From Polynucleobacter asymbioticus (lineage in GTDB: Bacteria; Pseudomonadota; Gammaproteobacteria; Burkholderiales; Burkholderiaceae), in assembly GCF_018687575.1 (NCBI RefSeq), contig NZ_CP061297.1, positions 62,001 to 126,000 of the forward strand: a stretch of DNA of 64,000 nucleotides, read 5' to 3'. Below are positions 39,851-45,983 of the stretch, in pieces. Below the pieces are notes generated by a model. The model was not told the DNA's origin, made no database searches, and saw only the letters and a list, made by a program, of their open reading frames with translations. Positions within the stretch are counted from its first letter, which is position 1. Every line of letters starts with the position of its first letter. Position numbers and translations under genes: made by a program.

Positions 39851-41310
39851 TCTTGGGAGAAGGTGGCAGTGAGCCACTCTGTTACCCGATCAAATCGATA
39901 ACGTCTTTGCCTGAGATTTCCTTCCAAGTCTGATTCGCTTCCTGCGAATACTTTTCCTGCCGCAAGTAAAGAGCGGCGCTGTTGAGTGGTATCAATCTGA
40001 ATCAATCTAGGTAGTATCTTCGGCAATTCATGGCGAATATCGACAACGACACAATGTTCGTGTTGCAACTGCCCAACCTGGCATAGTAATAACTCTGCTT
40101 TACTCAAATTAAATTGATTGGCGATGATGAGTCGGTGGCATAGCAAGATCCACTCCTCATCTAATTTGTGTTCAGCGTGATGGCTTAATGCCTTTTCAGC
40201 ATAAGTGGCTAATTCGAACCAATCATTTTTCTTTGGGCTTGAGACATTCTCTAAAATTTTCCCAAGTAATTCTTTTGCTTCGGGTACGCCTTGTTGGTGT
40301 GCCTGCCAAATCCAATAGGAAGCTTGTAGCCCCCGAACCTTTTCTTCAATCTTTTCACGCTTGCGCCATAAATTGGCACCTTTTCTAAATTGCGAATATG
40401 CATGCCCTAAGTCTGCAGCGCGATCAAAGCATCGATCACTTTCACTGGCGTTATATCCAGAGAACTGTGGGCGACGATAAATCTCCCCAAGTGCAAACCA
40501 GGCATCGCGATCACCATCTTTTGCGGCAAGCTCTAACCAATAGGCTGCTTTCTTAAGTGAGGCATTCGACTTGCTGCTGCCCACCCCAATCAAATCTTTC
40601 GCATCAGAATCAACTTCATTGAATTGGGCTAGGCGTAAACCTAAGGTAAGTTTTGCAATCGTTAGGCCAAGTTCTGCTGCTTGTATTAATGCCGCCTCAT
40701 TCTTTTCTGAGGTCCAAGCATTCCAAAGCGAGGAGAGTGCCTCATCTTTTGGTTGTAGCTTAATAAGTAGCTCTTTGGCAGAATTGGTGAAAGGCGTTTC
40801 TGAGTCTGCTAACTCATGAAGGAAATCTTTTGCGGTTTTTTGAAGTGCAGAAAAATCACGTTCACCATCCTGCTTAGAAACCCAACTAGCAATTTCGGTT
40901 TGCAGATCTTTTTTATTGGGATCGAGTAATAACTCCGCGAGTTGCCATTGCGCCGCATATCTCGCAGAAACATTGGTTTGCGCTAGCTTCCAAAACGAGT
41001 TCCATCCAAAAGGGAATGCTGGCGAGCTCAGGGTGGCAGCAAGTGGAACCGCTGAAATCTGTTCAAACATTGCCAAAAAATCTGGGGAAGCTGCTTCAAG
41101 ATGGGTAGTTTCAATATCGCTTGAGCTTGTAGCGCTAACCAACTGATTTTTAAGTAATAAATATGATTTTTCTAACCAAATCAAAGCATTAGCAGGCTGG
41201 ATTGGGGTTTTAAAGGCCCCCGTAAGATAGGCTGAGGCCAAATTTTGTTGTGCAGAAACGTCACCTATGCGGGCTAATTGGAGGATTTTTAAGAATTCAC
41301 GGCTTGCCAT
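39835..41310 (-). CDS. Sel1-like repeat protein of unknown function
   Basis: This 491-residue protein has no signal peptide or membrane segment and is largely alpha-helical. Sel1-type repeats are recognisable at AQQNLASAYLTG, ALIWLEKSYL, AAYWLELAAKDGDRDAWFAL, CFDRAADLGHAYSQFRKGAN and SYWIWQAHQQGVPEAKELLG. Such repeats mediate protein contacts. The middle and C-terminus are less clear. It overlaps the end of tatC by 16 bp on the other strand. I do not know a gene name or role; a scaffold or regulatory protein is only a guess. Confidence 0.75.
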   Translation of the reverse strand: MASREFLKILQLARIGDVSAQQNLASAYLTGAFKTPIQPANALIWLEKSYLLLKNQLVSATSSSDIETTHLEAASPDFLAMFEQISAVPLAATLSSPAFPFGWNSFWKLAQTNVSARYAAQWQLAELLLDPNKKDLQTEIASWVSKQDGERDFSALQKTAKDFLHELADSETPFTNSAKELLIKLQPKDEALSSLWNAWTSEKNEAALIQAAELGLTIAKLTLGLRLAQFNEVDSDAKDLIGVGSSKSNASLKKAAYWLELAAKDGDRDAWFALGEIYRRPQFSGYNASESDRCFDRAADLGHAYSQFRKGANLWRKREKIEEKVRGLQASYWIWQAHQQGVPEAKELLGKILENVSSPKKNDWFELATYAEKALSHHAEHKLDEEWILLCHRLIIANQFNLSKAELLLCQVGQLQHEHCVVVDIRHELPKILPRLIQIDTTQQRRSLLAAGKVFAGSESDLEGNLRQRRYRFDRVTEWLTATFSQDQTVA

Positions 41311-41500
41311 ATGACAATTTTGACATTCAAGGCCCCAAAAAGACAGAAATCAAAGCCCTTGTTGCCCTGATACAACGAAGAAAGCCAAAAAACTGCCTTT
41401 TGACAAGCAAAAAGAGCTCCTAAATACCCTTACCCCCAGTCTAGCAAGGCAAAACAAGCAAAATTCATAGGTCCCAGTTTTGTTTGGGCATTACTTTCAA

Positions 41501-42732
41501 TTTATGGAGATTTAAAGAATGAAAAAATCGCTATTAGCAGTTGCAGCAATCGGCGCATTTGCGTCAGCAGCTCAAGCTCAGTCATCAGTAACCGTATACG
41601 GTATCATGGACGTTGGTTTCCAAGGCGTTACAACACGTAATGGCTCAACAAAAACTAACGTAACTCGTTTCTCAGGCGAAGGCTCTGAGACAACTTCACG
41701 TTTAGGCTTCCGCGGCACTGAAGATTTAGGCGGCGGCATGTCTGCTTTCTTCACAGCTGAATTTGCATTGAATTCAACCAACGCAACTCTCTCTGGTGAT
41801 GCAAACAATGGTTTGTTTAACCGCCAATCATTCGTTGGTTTGAAAAAGAATGGTATTGGTCAAGCTGCAATCGGTACTCAGTACACACCAATTCATTTGG
41901 CAGTTGGTCGTACAGACCCAGGCCAGCAGAACAACATGTTGGGTAACGTAATTTACGCAACTTCAGCAGCTCAAGGTTCAGGCCAAACAACGGCTTCTTA
42001 CACAGTTCGTTACAACAATGCTTTGACATTGGCAACTGACCGCATGGCTGGCTTTGTAGTTAGTGCAATCTATAACAACAACAACAGCGATACAAACCAA
42101 ACTGCAACTGGTGGTGGTTCTGCCAATAACAATGCATGGGGCGCTGGTGTTAACTATGTATGGAACAAGTTAAACGTTGATGCAGCAATCCAGAATTCAA
42201 GCTCTTCAAACTGGGCAGCTCAACAAACTACTGGTCCAGCTTTGCCAGCAACGCAAACTGTTGGTTTAGCTCCATCAAACCCATTGGGCGCGGCTGTTCA
42301 AATGTCCCAACAGTACTACGGCGCAACTTATGACTTCGGCATCTTGAAGGCATACGCTGGCTATGTAAGCAACAAAGTTCAGGCTCAAGCTAGCAATGCT
42401 CAGCTCGAAAGAACTGCTCAGCAGATCGGTGTTCGTAGCTTCGTAACTCCAAAAGTTGAAGCTTGGGCATCTGCTGGTACAGGTCGTTACACAGCACAAA
42501 ACTTGTCAGCATTGTCAAGTGCAACTGCTGCTTCAGCATCACAAAACTTCACTGGTTACCAGTTGGGTTCTAACTACTGGTTGAGCAAGCGTACAAACAT
42601 GTATGCAATTTTCGGCTCAACACAAGTATCAAGCTCTTCAATTGCTGTATCTGAAGGCGGTTCAAGCTACGGTGTTGGCGTACGTCACACTTTCTAATTT
42701 AACGCTAGCGTAAGCTAGTTAGAATTAGTCTT
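41501..42732 (+). repeat. Inverted repeat copy A (porin unit)
   Basis: This stretch, from 18 bp before the porin start to about 35 bp after its stop, is highly similar to the reverse complement of 44118-45407. The shared flanks are TTTATGGAGATTTAAAGA before the ATG and TTTAACGCTAGCGTAAGCTA after the stop. Outside these borders the sequences differ. Confidence 0.85.
41519..42697 (+). CDS. Gram-negative porin, copy A
   Basis: A 392-residue outer-membrane porin of the betaproteobacterial general-porin family (Porin_4/OmpC-like). The signal peptide is MKKSLLAVAAIGAFASAAQA and the mature protein begins QSSVTVYGIMDVGFQG. Typical features are LGFRGTEDLGGGMSAFFTAE, NRQSFVGLKKNGIGQAAIGT, a variable loop rich in Asn, Ser and Thr, and the C-terminal strand ending in GVGVRHTF with terminal Phe. 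It is very similar to the porin at 44154-45389, with differences concentrated in loops. Promoter hexamers were not convincing; a TATGGAG ribosome binding site precedes the ATG. Confidence 0.95.
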   Translation: MKKSLLAVAAIGAFASAAQAQSSVTVYGIMDVGFQGVTTRNGSTKTNVTRFSGEGSETTSRLGFRGTEDLGGGMSAFFTAEFALNSTNATLSGDANNGLFNRQSFVGLKKNGIGQAAIGTQYTPIHLAVGRTDPGQQNNMLGNVIYATSAAQGSGQTTASYTVRYNNALTLATDRMAGFVVSAIYNNNNSDTNQTATGGGSANNNAWGAGVNYVWNKLNVDAAIQNSSSSNWAAQQTTGPALPATQTVGLAPSNPLGAAVQMSQQYYGATYDFGILKAYAGYVSNKVQAQASNAQLERTAQQIGVRSFVTPKVEAWASAGTGRYTAQNLSALSSATAASASQNFTGYQLGSNYWLSKRTNMYAIFGSTQVSSSSIAVSEGGSSYGVGVRHTF

Positions 42733-42742
42733 GCATCAAATT

Positions 42743-42772
42743 AACCCACTGCTGAAACGCAGTGGGTTTTTT
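42743..42772 (+). terminator. Rho-independent terminator after porin A
   Basis: The perfect 10-bp stem AACCCACTGC (42743-42752) and GCAGTGGGTT (42759-42768) closes a 6-nt loop and is followed by T residues. Its sequence is unrelated to the terminator of porin B. Confidence 0.88.
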
Positions 42773-42819
42773 ATCGCCTATATAGGTGCTTAGTTTATTA
42801 AAATAGCTAATTATGGACG

Positions 42820-43977
42820 CTACTGCTTCACGGATGTTCTTTTAGATTGAAGCATTTCAATATTCATCTCAGCAGTTAGATTCGATGAATAAAATCGCTC
42901 TATCATTTCTACCGACGTTCTGGCATTTCTTGCAAGAGTAAGCAGGTCGATTCCCTGACCATATAGAAGCCTGAATGTAATCGCTGTATGTCTGAGGCTA
43001 TATAGCGTCCTTGTTTGACCCTCTTGACCAATAGTGCCGCCACTCTTTTTAAGAATTTTTCTAAAATGAGACGTAATTAGCTGAATTGCTCCAGCCCTAT
43101 CTTTTGCTTCGGGTAGAAATAGGTAGTCTTCACTTTTACCGTATCCTCTAGATGCTTGATAACGCTTTAATCTCTCGTAGATAAAAGCGCCAGCTCTTAG
43201 GGTAACTATCTGACCAGTATGAGACTTTGTTTTTGGCAAACTTAATCTTAAATAGGTATTAGCCCCTAAAATCATCTCAACATGCTTGTGTTTAATGATT
43301 TTTATATCTACTGGCCTGACAAATGAATTCACCATAAATTGTATGAGCCAAGTCATTTCCATCGGGACCGTATCACGATGCATATATGCCCCACCAGAAG
43401 TTACTCGATGGTTATTCGGTACGGTATGGCAAGTTCTAGAGAGCTGCCTACTAGCTTGCAAGATTTTCCTATACTCTTTGCATGTAAAGCTCCCCCTTGG
43501 AGTGCTTTTGGCTTTAATTTTTGGGAAAAGAGGTATCTTATAAATCCACTCTAACTCTAGTGCAATTTGTAGGATTCTTTTCAGTAGACCTAGATATTGT
43601 TTAATTGTTATTGGTTTAATGTCTTTTGAATTTAAAAAATTCACGAATTGAGCCACGGTACTGTAGTCAATTTCAATGATATTTATACCGGTAAAAAATG
43701 GAAGAAGTTTTGACTTAAGTCGACTTTGAAACATTCCAAGGGTCTGGGCGGTAATTTCACCCCGGGAATGCTTGGCAATCTCCCTTCTGAGTGCAATTTT
43801 TACTGCGTCGTCAAAAATGATTGGGTTAGGCTTCGCTATAAATTCAGAAAGAAATTGAGAGGACTTCTGAGATGGCTTGGCTACCAAGTATTCAATATTT
43901 ATCGGATTGACCGCTCCGATGCAGTCATCATTGGCTGCATTGCATTTGATATGGGGATGCAAATAAATACTTATCAT
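42820..43977 (-). CDS. Tyrosine recombinase/phage-type integrase
   Basis: The 385-residue protein has an N-terminal SAM-like core-binding domain (about 70-160) and a C-terminal catalytic domain. The first Arg is in FVRPVDI, a beta-hairpin Lys in LPKTKSHTG, Arg329-His330 in YSLRHT and the nucleophile Tyr363 in IERFYSSN. Box II has Ser where many members have His (HxLRH), and the later LGH is replaced by NARTS, as in a known subfamily with NMGTS at this place. It lies alone between two facing porin genes, in visibly AT-richer sequence than its neighbours. No attachment-site repeat was identified, so acquisition by transfer is inference. Confidence 0.88.
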   Translation of the reverse strand: MISIYLHPHIKCNAANDDCIGAVNPINIEYLVAKPSQKSSQFLSEFIAKPNPIIFDDAVKIALRREIAKHSRGEITAQTLGMFQSRLKSKLLPFFTGINIIEIDYSTVAQFVNFLNSKDIKPITIKQYLGLLKRILQIALELEWIYKIPLFPKIKAKSTPRGSFTCKEYRKILQASRQLSRTCHTVPNNHRVTSGGAYMHRDTVPMEMTWLIQFMVNSFVRPVDIKIIKHKHVEMILGANTYLRLSLPKTKSHTGQIVTLRAGAFIYERLKRYQASRGYGKSEDYLFLPEAKDRAGAIQLITSHFRKILKKSGGTIGQEGQTRTLYSLRHTAITFRLLYGQGIDLLTLARNARTSVEMIERFYSSNLTAEMNIEMLQSKRTSVKQ

Positions 43978-44083
43978 TTTTAATTATAAATTTGATGTAT
44001 TTATACAACCCAACAAAATGATTTCATACGAGTATTTGTAATGATTGGCAATAATAGTTATAAGATTGACACTAAAAAAATTT

Positions 44084-44112
44084 AATAAAAAAACCACCCC
44101 GAAGGGTGGTTT
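44084..44112 (-). terminator. Rho-independent terminator after porin B
   Basis: The stem AAACCACCC (44091-44099) pairs with GGGTGGTTT (44104-44112) around CGAA. Read on the minus strand it is followed by a T-rich run. It lies 42 bp after the porin B stop. Confidence 0.85.
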
Positions 44113-44117
44113 TTAAG

Positions 44118-45407
44118 AAGACCTAATTCTGACTAGCTTACGCTAGCGTTAAATTAGAAAGTGTGACGTACGCCAACACCGTAGCTTGAGCCACCTTCAG
44201 ACATGGCAACACCAGAGCTAGATACTTGTGTTGAGCCGAAAATTGCATACATGTTTGTACGCTTGCTCAACCAGTAGTTAGAACCCAACTGGTAACCAGT
44301 GAAGTTTTGGCTAGCTGAACTCTTAACTGCTAAGGCTGCTGCAGATTGTGCAAGGTTCTGGCCTTCAAAACGGCCTGTACCGGCAGATGCCCAAGCTTCG
44401 ATTGTTGGAGTTACGAAGCTACGAACACCAATTTGCTGAGCAGTACGTTGTAAGTAGCTGCTTGGTGTAGCTTGGTTTGAGTACTTTGCTGAAATATAGC
44501 CAGCGTATGCCTTCAAGATACCAAAGTCATAAGTTGCACCGTAGTACTGTTGAGCCATATTGATTGCTGTACCTAATGGGTTAGCTGGCAAGTTAGCTGC
44601 GGCAGTGCTGGCTGAAGCTGGCAATGCTGGACCAGTAGTTTGCTGAGCTGTCCAGTTTGAAGAGCTTGAATTCTGGATTGCTGCATCAACGTTTAACTTG
44701 TTCCATACATAGTTAACACCAGCGCCCCATGCATTGTTGTTGGTAGAGCCACCAGCAGCTGCGGTCTGATTTGTATCAGTGTTGTTATTGTTGTAGATAG
44801 CGTTTACCTGAAAGCCAGCAATTCGATCAGTCATTAATGTCAAAGCATTGTTGTAACGAACTGTGTATGAAGTAGCTGTTTGACCTGAACCCTGTGAAGC
44901 ATTAGTTGCGTAAATTACGTTACCCAACATGTTGTTTTGCTGACCTGGGTCTGTACGACCAACTGCCATGTGGATTGGGGTGTACTGAGTACCGATTGCA
45001 GCTTGACCAATACCATTCTTTTTCAAACCAACAAATGTTTGACGGTTAGCTAAACCATTGCCGTATGTGCCAGATAGTGTTGCATCTGTTGGCGAGAGTT
45101 GAAATTCAGCCGTGAAGAAAGCAGACATGCCGCCGCCTAAATCTTCAGTGCCGCGGAAGCCTAAACGTGAAGTTTGCTCAGAGCCTTCGCCAGAGAAACG
45201 TGTTTGATTAGATTTACCACCAGCTACTGGGTTTTGAACTGCTGTGCTTGTTGATGAAGCAGCAGTACCACGTGTTGTTACACCTTGAAAACCAACGTCC
45301 AAGATACCGTATACGGTTACTGATGACTGAGCTTGAGCTGCTGACGCAAATGCGCCGATTGCTGCAACTGCTAATAGCGATTTTTTCATTCTTTAAATCT
45401 CCATAAA
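44118..45407 (-). repeat. Inverted repeat copy B (porin unit)
   Basis: This is the counterpart of 41501-42732 in opposite orientation, about 1.29 kb because the porin loops carry small insertions. The homology ends about 18 bp upstream of the start codon and about 36 bp after the stop. Confidence 0.85.
44154..45389 (-). CDS. Gram-negative porin, copy B
   Basis: A 411-residue paralogue of porin A, with the same signal peptide, the same QSSVTVYGI start and the same C-terminal GVGVRHTF. It differs by a longer loop after GVTTRG (Ala/Ser/Thr-rich insertion with QNPVAGGKSNQ), by ATLSGTYGNGLANRQTF, and by extra residues in the loop after TTGPALPAS. Porin loops set pore size and surface exposure, so the two copies probably differ in those. 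Its 5' leader can form a hairpin touching the ribosome binding site, which copy A lacks. Confidence 0.95.
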   Translation of the reverse strand: MKKSLLAVAAIGAFASAAQAQSSVTVYGILDVGFQGVTTRGTAASSTSTAVQNPVAGGKSNQTRFSGEGSEQTSRLGFRGTEDLGGGMSAFFTAEFQLSPTDATLSGTYGNGLANRQTFVGLKKNGIGQAAIGTQYTPIHMAVGRTDPGQQNNMLGNVIYATNASQGSGQTATSYTVRYNNALTLMTDRIAGFQVNAIYNNNNTDTNQTAAAGGSTNNNAWGAGVNYVWNKLNVDAAIQNSSSSNWTAQQTTGPALPASASTAAANLPANPLGTAINMAQQYYGATYDFGILKAYAGYISAKYSNQATPSSYLQRTAQQIGVRSFVTPTIEAWASAGTGRFEGQNLAQSAAALAVKSSASQNFTGYQLGSNYWLSKRTNMYAIFGSTQVSSSGVAMSEGGSSYGVGVRHTF

Positions 45408-45429
45408 CTAAGGGATGAAGATTTAAAGA
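45390..45429 (-). promoter_or_regulatory. 5' leader hairpin next to the porin B start codon
   Basis: On the minus strand, TCTTTAAATC (45429-45420) is followed after 20 nt by GATTTAAAGA (45399-45390), a perfect 10-bp inverted repeat ending directly at the ATG. The 3' arm includes the last G of the GGAG ribosome binding site. The stem is AT-rich, so it could act as a weak, temperature- or protein-sensitive translational block. Porin A has the 3' arm but not the 5' arm. Confidence 0.5.
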
Positions 45430-45455
45430 TTTTTTGACGCTGTTTTTATTTAAGA

Positions 45456-45983
45456 CTAGCGCCGCATTCTTCGATATAGATGATTTGAGAGCTTGATGGT
45501 GTATAAAAAGAAAATAGCCCCAGAAATATTCGACGCTAGAGTGTTGATGATCAGAGCGCTCGAAACTTGATTATCGTTATAAAAAATGTATGAAAACCTC
45601 AATAATGAAGTAACCATGCCGTTTAAAGCAATTAGATAAAAAAGCTGAAGAGGACTTACTCCGCTAAATGAATCACTTATGGTGGCTAGCTTTTGCCATA
45701 ACTTGTAAGAAAATAGAGCGGCAGAGGACGATAGTAGCGCTAACCAGATGGCATCGTTTGGTTCGTAATCACGCCAAAGGATGCTTGAAAATGCATTTCC
45801 AAAAAAGATGCCGAAGAATCCAACATAGCCAAATAATATAACTGCCAGCAATCTTAGGCCTGCCAATAAATATACTGAATAAAGAAATTTTTCAGATTTA
45901 AGAAAATGAAGTGCTTCATGATTAATAAAATCACAAATACTCCAGATTACTGCTATGCAGATAACAGTTAAAGCTTGGATCAT
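45456..45983 (-). CDS. Integral membrane protein of unknown function
   Basis: From the ATG at 45983 (preceded by CAAGAAAAA) the protein has 175 residues and about five hydrophobic segments. An open frame upstream extends 57 codons but lacks a plausible N-terminus. The stretch LLAGLRLLAVILFGYVGFFGIFFGNAFSS vaguely recalls MASE1-type sensory membrane domains (pattern G..L...L.GY....I..GN), but no signalling domain follows. It diverges from the winged-helix gene at 46157, with 173 bp between them. Function is not known. Confidence 0.6.
   Translation of the reverse strand: MIQALTVICIAVIWSICDFINHEALHFLKSEKFLYSVYLLAGLRLLAVILFGYVGFFGIFFGNAFSSILWRDYEPNDAIWLALLSSSAALFSYKLWQKLATISDSFSGVSPLQLFYLIALNGMVTSLLRFSYIFYNDNQVSSALIINTLASNISGAIFFLYTIKLSNHLYRRMRR

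Follow-up and report, generated by a model that had tools for sequence, protein, structure and literature searches.

Switching of surface proteins by DNA inversion is known mostly from host-associated bacteria. At the invertible surface-protein loci of Bacteroides, DNA inversion governs outer-membrane proteins, and in the Omp1 system of Dichelobacter nodosus, attributed to Moses et al. in 1995, an inversion is said to exchange outer-membrane protein genes. Here we analyze a locus of Polynucleobacter asymbioticus in which two convergent genes for trimeric porins (porin A and porin B) enclose the open reading frame of a solitary tyrosine recombinase (Int). It lies within the window, by which we mean the whole stretch of 64,000 nucleotides that was analyzed (positions 62001-126000 of contig C1, NZ_CP061297.1, the single 1.84-Mb contig of this genome). 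The locus and the D. nodosus system, as the latter is reported, would be alike in the inversion of Gram-negative outer-membrane protein genes.

Among the closest described systems is the Vpma switch of Mycoplasma agalactiae, for which PMC2268961 describes surface-protein genes with a recombinase, Xer1, encoded in the locus, a unique promoter, silent copies and inversion, the putative recombination sites being placed at -1 to -72 relative to the start codons. The Polynucleobacter locus likewise contains a recombinase gene and carries an identical short 5' site in all porin copies of a genome (-15 to +10, 15/15 genomes). Two orientations are seen here between species, and leader conservation and a predicted occlusion suggest that there may be one active and one silent site. 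What sets the locus apart from Vpma is the trimeric porin, the Gram-negative freshwater host, the arrangement in mostly two facing slots, the placement of the recombinase gene within the segment that would invert, a shared core extending over ribosome-binding site and start codon, and the predicted RNA lock at the putative silent slot. The likeness is one of action. The Bacteroides work listed in our search concerns promoter inversions, whereas here gene bodies would move between two fixed 5' contexts. Among the titles and opening lines of abstracts listed by our literature search, with subscription papers mostly outside its scope, none concerned porin inversion in Polynucleobacter or paired inverted porins with a recombinase.

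We lean, somewhat beyond even, toward reading the locus as a two-slot porin switch in which an open expression site is paired with a locked silent site. Slot A, on the tatC/Sel1 side, would express the resident porin through a conserved leader and an open ribosome-binding site. Slot B, on the mscL side, has conserved upstream sequence over only about 30 bp. What lies 5' of a porin there would pair with the ribosome-binding and start region, so that translation from this slot would probably be poor or absent. A crossover within or beside a 25-bp core, the same at both slots, would invert the whole intervening segment, with the recombinase gene, the two terminators and the porin bodies, so that the porin bodies would trade slots. 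The resident Int is the likely catalyst, and gene conversion between the copies probably homogenizes their first ~75 to 100 nt as well. Such switching would presumably take place within a culture and be reversible.

RESULTS

The locus occurs in opposite orientations among relatives

The face-to-face layout of the porins with a tyrosine recombinase between them, claimed in a preliminary description of this DNA, is borne out by the gene coordinates (Table 1), the inverted-repeat arms and the Pfam matches. Six in-register arm pairs (81-444 nt, 83-97% complementary) span both porin genes, and a seventh pair, of 26 nt, is out of register. Sequence comparison likewise agreed with the claimed limits of homology (18 bp upstream and ~35 bp downstream) and with the claim of distinct terminators: porins A and B are homologous from -18 to about 35 bp beyond the stop codon, past which terminator T1 follows porin A and terminator T2 follows porin B. 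The porins had also been called near-identical, and this did not hold, as they share 82% of their nucleotides and 83-84% of their amino acids, with the first 75 nt identical and other 75-column stretches falling to 25-28%. When the genome itself was queried with porin A, no copies besides these two were found at an E value of ≤0.001.

We then compared orientations across relatives (genomes and stretches of them are given by our G and L handles). Porin A is followed by T1 and porin B by T2 in G000, G105, and G028, and the reverse is found in G083, G010, and G173; int, the terminators and the attached porin bodies are thus inverted relative to the flanks. The orientation of Int agrees with these terminator states and adds G027, G034, G129, G065, and G011 as window-like and G123 as flipped. 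In a tree of 26 genomes built from up to six neighboring proteins (some genomes do not have all six), the flipped G173 is sister to the window-like G028 with a support of 100, next to G129 and G027, both window-like, and G083 plus G010 on the one hand and G123 on the other are separate flips. If loci are inherited with their species, the species tree holds at least three flips. The inversion proposed earlier is thus supported in part: relatives carry opposite orientations, so that the locus does not have one fixed orientation across related species, but the proposed exchange of 3' portions needs correction. The zone common to all copies is the porin 5' end (-15 to ~+75), so that inversion would move almost the complete porin body from one upstream context to the other.

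A larger rearrangement was found in G044 and G002, where the entire mscL-petABC-sspAB block between inverted porins is reversed (a core inversion); G001 has a comparable arrangement, unreversed. We surveyed tatC and petA in 129 genomes that were at least 95% complete, hence 8 of the 21 recombinase genomes fall outside the 116 genomes in which both genes were near each other on one contig. These were colinear in 114 cases and inverted in two (G044 and G002), which corresponds to 2/13 recombinase-positive genomes versus 0/103 others (Fisher p 0.012). The survey omitted 12 of the 128 tatC genomes, with the genes on separate contigs, and G034, whose pair spans contig ends, was counted as near by hand. 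Since the B flanks of G044 and G002 are alike (96% over 1.6 kb), the block inversion may represent one or two events. A tRNA-Thr(TGT) gene is present on both sides of the reversed block in G044 (L045/L085) and in G002 (L046/L086).

The two porins could instead be a static pair, each using its own signals, with the orientations arising over species time as rare neutral rearrangements or whole-locus transfers. We regard this explanation as improbable: it agrees with the knowledge of flips from one genome per species and with the far-diverged loci of G173 and G028 (porins 56-59% identical, Int dN of 0.17), but it has to accommodate three or more flips and, in addition, one or two core inversions, all at a single small locus, the identity of the core within genomes, and B slots that pair with the ribosome-binding site by different pairings in different lineages. 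Taken together, our findings support the view that the locus is a hot spot of inversion over evolutionary time and has the form of an expression-slot/silent-slot porin switch with its own recombinase.

A 25-bp core is identical within each genome

The 25-bp core (-15 to +10) is identical among all same-locus porins in each of the 15 multi-porin genomes and exists in five versions across genomes. In the window's own genome, it is found at the two porins only, allowing up to three mismatches. In 15/15 pairs examined, the exactly identical stretch starts at -15 to -18, amid quite different upstream contexts. Among divergent same-locus pairs, whose bodies are 51-62% identical, identity over the first 66 nt is 97-100% in G028, G001, G173 A/M, G044 A/M, G044 M/B, and G182, 94% in G173 B/M, and 86% in G002. 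On average, same-locus pairs share 94.5% of these 66 nt versus 84.9% for different-genome pairs of matched body identity, a value as high being reached in 0 of 20,000 resamplings (p ≤ 5e-5). The resampling used 14 of the 18 same-locus pairs, as the other four had too few matched pairs, and the comparison omitted G153_X (start misplaced) and G184_A (a duplicate of L074). Porins at other loci of the same genome are 50-83% identical over their first 66 nt (seven comparisons).

We did not accept the first 66 nt as stand-alone proof of site-specific exchange, because gene conversion yields the same pattern. The identity of the core fits site-specific exchange within it, and gene conversion is either needed as well for the homogenized signal-peptide region or could account for that region alone.

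A rival explanation is that homologous recombination between the inverted porins both makes the inversions and homogenizes the 5' ends, with Int being a bystander that was left by a mobile island and came to rest between the copies. We consider it unlikely, although it is the strongest of the alternatives weighed here. Homologous recombination is feasible in the window, with a 138-nt 5' arm (97%) and arms of 83-89% elsewhere, and also in G083, G010, and G105, whose porin bodies are 76-80% identical; moreover, the homogenized zone reaches beyond any plausible core into the signal peptide. The constant left edge of homology, at -15 to -18 whatever the upstream context, argues against it, as do G011 and G065, where exact identity covers only -15 to +10 or -16 to +29 and the remainder is diverged.

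The 3' ends of the porins were also evaluated. The hairpin CTAGC-GTAA-GCTAG after the stop codon was rejected as a recombination site of the switch because it is also present in single-porin genomes without this Int, its stem varying by paired changes (judged by eye). This small 3' untranslated region (UTR) hairpin (42698-42732, 44118-44153 and single-porin relatives) often has a GNRA-like loop, and its stem shows paired changes in relatives.

The upstream contexts of the two slots are unequal

The 170 bp ahead of porin A are strongly conserved across 17 aligned genomes, five of which are without this Int; ahead of porin B, only ~30 bp are conserved (8 genomes). The A-leader alignment omitted G001, G065, G011, G123, and G182, and the A leaders of G065, G011, and G123 look different. 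Within 41349-41518, upstream of porin A, we observed a conserved dyad, TTGTTGCC-CTGATACAAC, perhaps the site of a regulator.

At porin B, the constant ribosome-binding/start region is preceded by its own inverted complement, and in the window the two form a predicted 15-bp stem over the Shine-Dalgarno sequence (z of -3.9). The corresponding z values for B slots are -3.4 in G010, -3.5 in G028, -1.5 in G173, and -5.3 in G011, and those for A slots are +0.6 in the window and -0.3 in G010. The mean cost of opening the -15 to +3 region was 4.9 kcal/mol at A (n = 16) versus 12.9 kcal/mol at B (n = 15), with a p value of 2e-6 that overstates the significance because the genomes are related. The same region costs 4.1 kcal/mol in single-porin genomes (n = 24), 2.3 kcal/mol in porins at other loci (n = 5), and 8.4 kcal/mol in middle copies (n = 4). 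The upstream shuffles of this analysis preserve base composition only, not dinucleotides. A hairpin lock at slot B is thus predicted from RNA folding. We propose tentatively, rating it a little short of even, that the core is the ribosome-binding site plus start codon, that its upstream complement would lock the silent slot at the RNA level, and that inversion would free the stored porin with no promoter being moved.

The B slot of the window contains a second dyad, CATCCCTTA/TAAAGAATG, with 7/9 pairs; three relatives have 9/9. In the B slots of G173, G028, and G176, the left arm CATTCTTTA pairs with TAAAGAATG, and eight B slots keep the CATTCTTTA/TAAAGAATG dyad with the same spacing and arrangement, 7-9 of its 9 pairs being formed. 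G011, G065, and G123 have TACGAATG as right arm, with CATTCGTA, CATTCCTA, or TATTCGTA as left arm; in these three TACGAATG species, both arms change together in sequence and length, one base being lost per side. Over 15 B rows, the mean dyad score was 7.2/9 with a slot's own right arm. It dropped to 6.3 when right arms of a different type were used and to 5.6 (best 6.5) when the upstream sequence was shuffled; G153 was mis-indexed among these rows, and the opening-cost analysis used its corrected start.

The dyad may serve RNA, the recombinase or both. Were it solely a DNA-binding site of the recombinase (12-bp arms with a 7-bp spacer) and without effect on translation, its fixed geometry in eight B slots, the co-changing arms of the three TACGAATG species and the higher score of a slot's own right arm (with G153 mis-indexed among the rows) would be expected. 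We nevertheless judge this explanation doubtful, given that the strongest fold in G000, G083, G010, G105, and G034 is centered elsewhere (arms of ~15 bp, loop of 10-12 nt) and hides the Shine-Dalgarno sequence, and that the left arm is mostly absent from A sites.

Int is a tyrosine recombinase that recurs with porins

Int matches PF13102 above the cut-off and PF00589 only below it (19.5 versus 27.1 bits). R221, K251, R329, H330, and Y363 are invariant across 23 aligned sequences, and the HxxR box has Tyr in place of His; we take these residues to have the catalytic roles usual for the family. With a SAM-like N-terminal domain and the catalytic R, K, R, H/Y, and Y, Int belongs to the tyrosine recombinases. 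Its dN/dS is 0.157, 0.095, and 0.067 in three close pairs of relatives, which indicates purifying selection in these measurable pairs; three further pairs, including both window pairs, had saturated dS. The gene is intact in 15/21 genomes and truncated by a contig end in G027.

The Int subfamily was found in 20 of the 186 genomes of the genus (E ≤ 3.2e-89; 22 rows), with a decayed copy in G129; weaker matches in the rest of the 105 genomes with an Int match were taken as other integrases. A porin shares the contig with Int in 17/21 genomes, 13 of which have two opposed porins, with the same orientation in G089 and G182 and a single porin in G027 and G129. In minimal loci, no gene but Int lies between the porins, and many Int-less genomes carry a single porin at this position, preceded by the same leader. 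Among the multi-porin genomes (at least two porin matches with E ≤ 1e-60), two separate porin genes within 15 kb of each other were found in G000, G001, G002, G028, G044, G089, and G173, all Int-positive. The others have their extra copies at other loci or contigs, G018 being one frame split into two matches.

These results also bear on Int as a bystander. This view gains from the disruption of Int in 5/21 genomes, from four more distant relatives in Comamonadaceae (three at 38-39% and one at 46% over a part), beside which (L108-L111) a porin-profile search found no porin, and from accessory modules that encode Int together with AAA and DUF6641 proteins and that some relatives carry close to tRNA-Thr. 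It is countered by the position of Int as the sole gene between the porins in minimal loci, by the co-occurrence of the subfamily with porins in 17/21 genomes and by purifying selection in the three measurable pairs. Under the switch reading, the resident recombinase is the likely catalyst of inversion, judging from its sequence and position. We also considered Int as a mobile-island integrase with the porin as attachment site and rejected it for the window, whose copies are inverted, not direct, and enclose Int only; this reading fails for the window only, since G089 and G182 have two same-orientation porins around larger inserts. Among viral contigs, 11 pattern stretches were returned, with no relative of Int among them.

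The accessory modules lie beside the porin locus in G002 (L046:7045-13172), G001 (L139:9856-15861), and G044 (L045:10836-14375). They contain Int, a short XerC-like protein (PF00589), DUF6641, and family-less proteins, plus an AAA protein in G002, the Pfam scan having been run on the G002 set.

The porins differ mostly in their loops

The Pfam Porin_4 profile matches both porins above its curated cut-off. The AlphaFold model of porin A is a porin barrel (mean pLDDT of 72.9), and the best five Foldseek matches of this model are BpsOmp38 and Omp32, with TM scores by query of 0.64-0.66. Profile and barrel fold, the latter from the porin A model only, place the proteins in the trimeric general porins (Porin_4); BpsOmp38, Omp32, and PorB, which are general trimeric porins, have the same family and fold as porin A. 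Differences between the two porins affect 44/145 loop residues, with an additional 19 indel columns, and 22/226 barrel residues, with no indels (p 7e-7), the loop borders being drawn by hand from the predicted model. Loops are likewise more divergent than the barrel in the porin pairs of G083, G010, G105, and G028; the A and B porins of G173, which are 93% identical, show a small contrast (12/188 versus 11/226).

Coordinates and neighborhood of the locus

The features of the locus are collected in Table 1. On its left are genes that we take to be hinT-tatBC, followed by Sel1, and on its right are a membrane protein, a presumably HTH-like small protein, mscL, and petABC (the names hinT, tat, pet, ssp, and HTH are our assignments). 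A search of 41300-45500 against Rfam gave four matches at E ≤ 1, none reaching curated thresholds.

Table 1. Features of the porin-recombinase locus (positions within the window)
Feature	Position	Strand	Remark
Leader and region upstream of porin A, proposed as expression site	41349..41518	+	170 bp conserved
Core at A, -15 to +10, spanning ribosome-binding site and start codon	41504..41528	+	
Porin A, trimeric-porin type barrel, 392 aa	41519..42697	+	PF13609, E 1.1e-37
Shared 3' UTR of porin A; contains a small hairpin and occurs in single-porin relatives as well	42698..42732	+	
Terminator T1, 3' side of recombinase gene	42743..42768	+	changes side with T2 in flipped relatives
Tyrosine recombinase Int, 385 aa	42820..43977	-	PF13102
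Terminator T2, 5' side of recombinase gene	44092..44111	-	from sequence; placed by eye
Shared 3' UTR of porin B	44118..44153	-	
Porin B, 411 aa	44154..45389	-	PF13609, E 1e-33
Core at B, -15 to +10, identical to core at A	45380..45404	-	
Predicted B hairpin, right arm ATGGAGATTTAAAGA, containing the Shine-Dalgarno sequence	45390..45404	-	RNA fold, z -3.9
Predicted B hairpin, left arm, complementary to ribosome-binding site	45415..45429	-	
Second dyad, left arm CATCCCTTA; partner TAAAGAATG at 45387-45395	45409..45417	-	

Several relatives showed further features around their porins. A four-gene operon resembling an ABC transporter (for amino acids, as guessed from sequence) lies beside or between the porins in L039:11907-15136, L135:8655-11792, L052:4491-7669, L048:10530-13708, and L040:10815-14050. 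In G044, the porin has as its neighbor a TPR protein that carries a glycosyltransferase family 41 domain (L085:4203-6092). The chromosomal contig of G034 starts and ends within porin A (L133 end, L042 start), where the assembler may have failed. One metagenome-assembled genome, G142, has six different porins (L094-L099), of which five carry the A leader and one is truncated by a contig end; four of the six are within ~120 bases of a contig end, and the genome is probably a strain mixture.

DISCUSSION

Several observations weigh against a two-slot switch catalyzed by Int. Regarding expression, no sigma-70-like match was found upstream of either porin, the sole match in the region being inside int. 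The predicted occlusion of slot B is weak in G065, G123, and G153 (z of 0.8, 0.4, and 1.3), and the A site of G011 is also costly to open (10.1 kcal/mol). The dyad is not above chance at A sites (mean best match of 5.8/9 versus 5.6 when shuffled), so that A sites are taken to be without it, and the B slots of three genomes lack it, namely G001, G044, and G002, the last two of which show the core inversion. Regarding exchange, the core overlaps translation signals, which are conserved in any case, and the first 66 nt are merely 86%, 85%, and 68% identical between the copies of G002, G065, and G011. Both porins of G123 end in T1-like terminators, T2 is also found behind single porins in G097, G098, and G077, and flips are known between species only, from collections that hold one genome per species and no reads. 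Finally, Int is disrupted by stops or a split into two frames in G034, G095, G123, G182, and G129, and G123 is one of the flipped genomes; G153, G095, G166, and G133 (4/21) have no porin on the Int contig. In these last four, whose whole contigs were inspected, Int is within 0.5 kb of one contig end with no porin on the other side, and the Int contigs of G095 and G133 carry mscL-petA too.

Phages commonly use porins as receptors, and porins also determine which solutes are taken up. The differences between the surface loops suggest altered exposure to phages, grazers or solutes as the benefit of a switch. If the switch is real, DNA inversion serves a free-living freshwater genus to change its porin, and keeping a silent slot locked would store a gene economically. 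The locus also illustrates how such a switch could pull housekeeping genes (mscL and petABC) into inversions. Since porins are both phage receptors and solute gates, the switch, if true, would provide a concrete, testable cause of differences in phage susceptibility and nutrient use among members of a single population.

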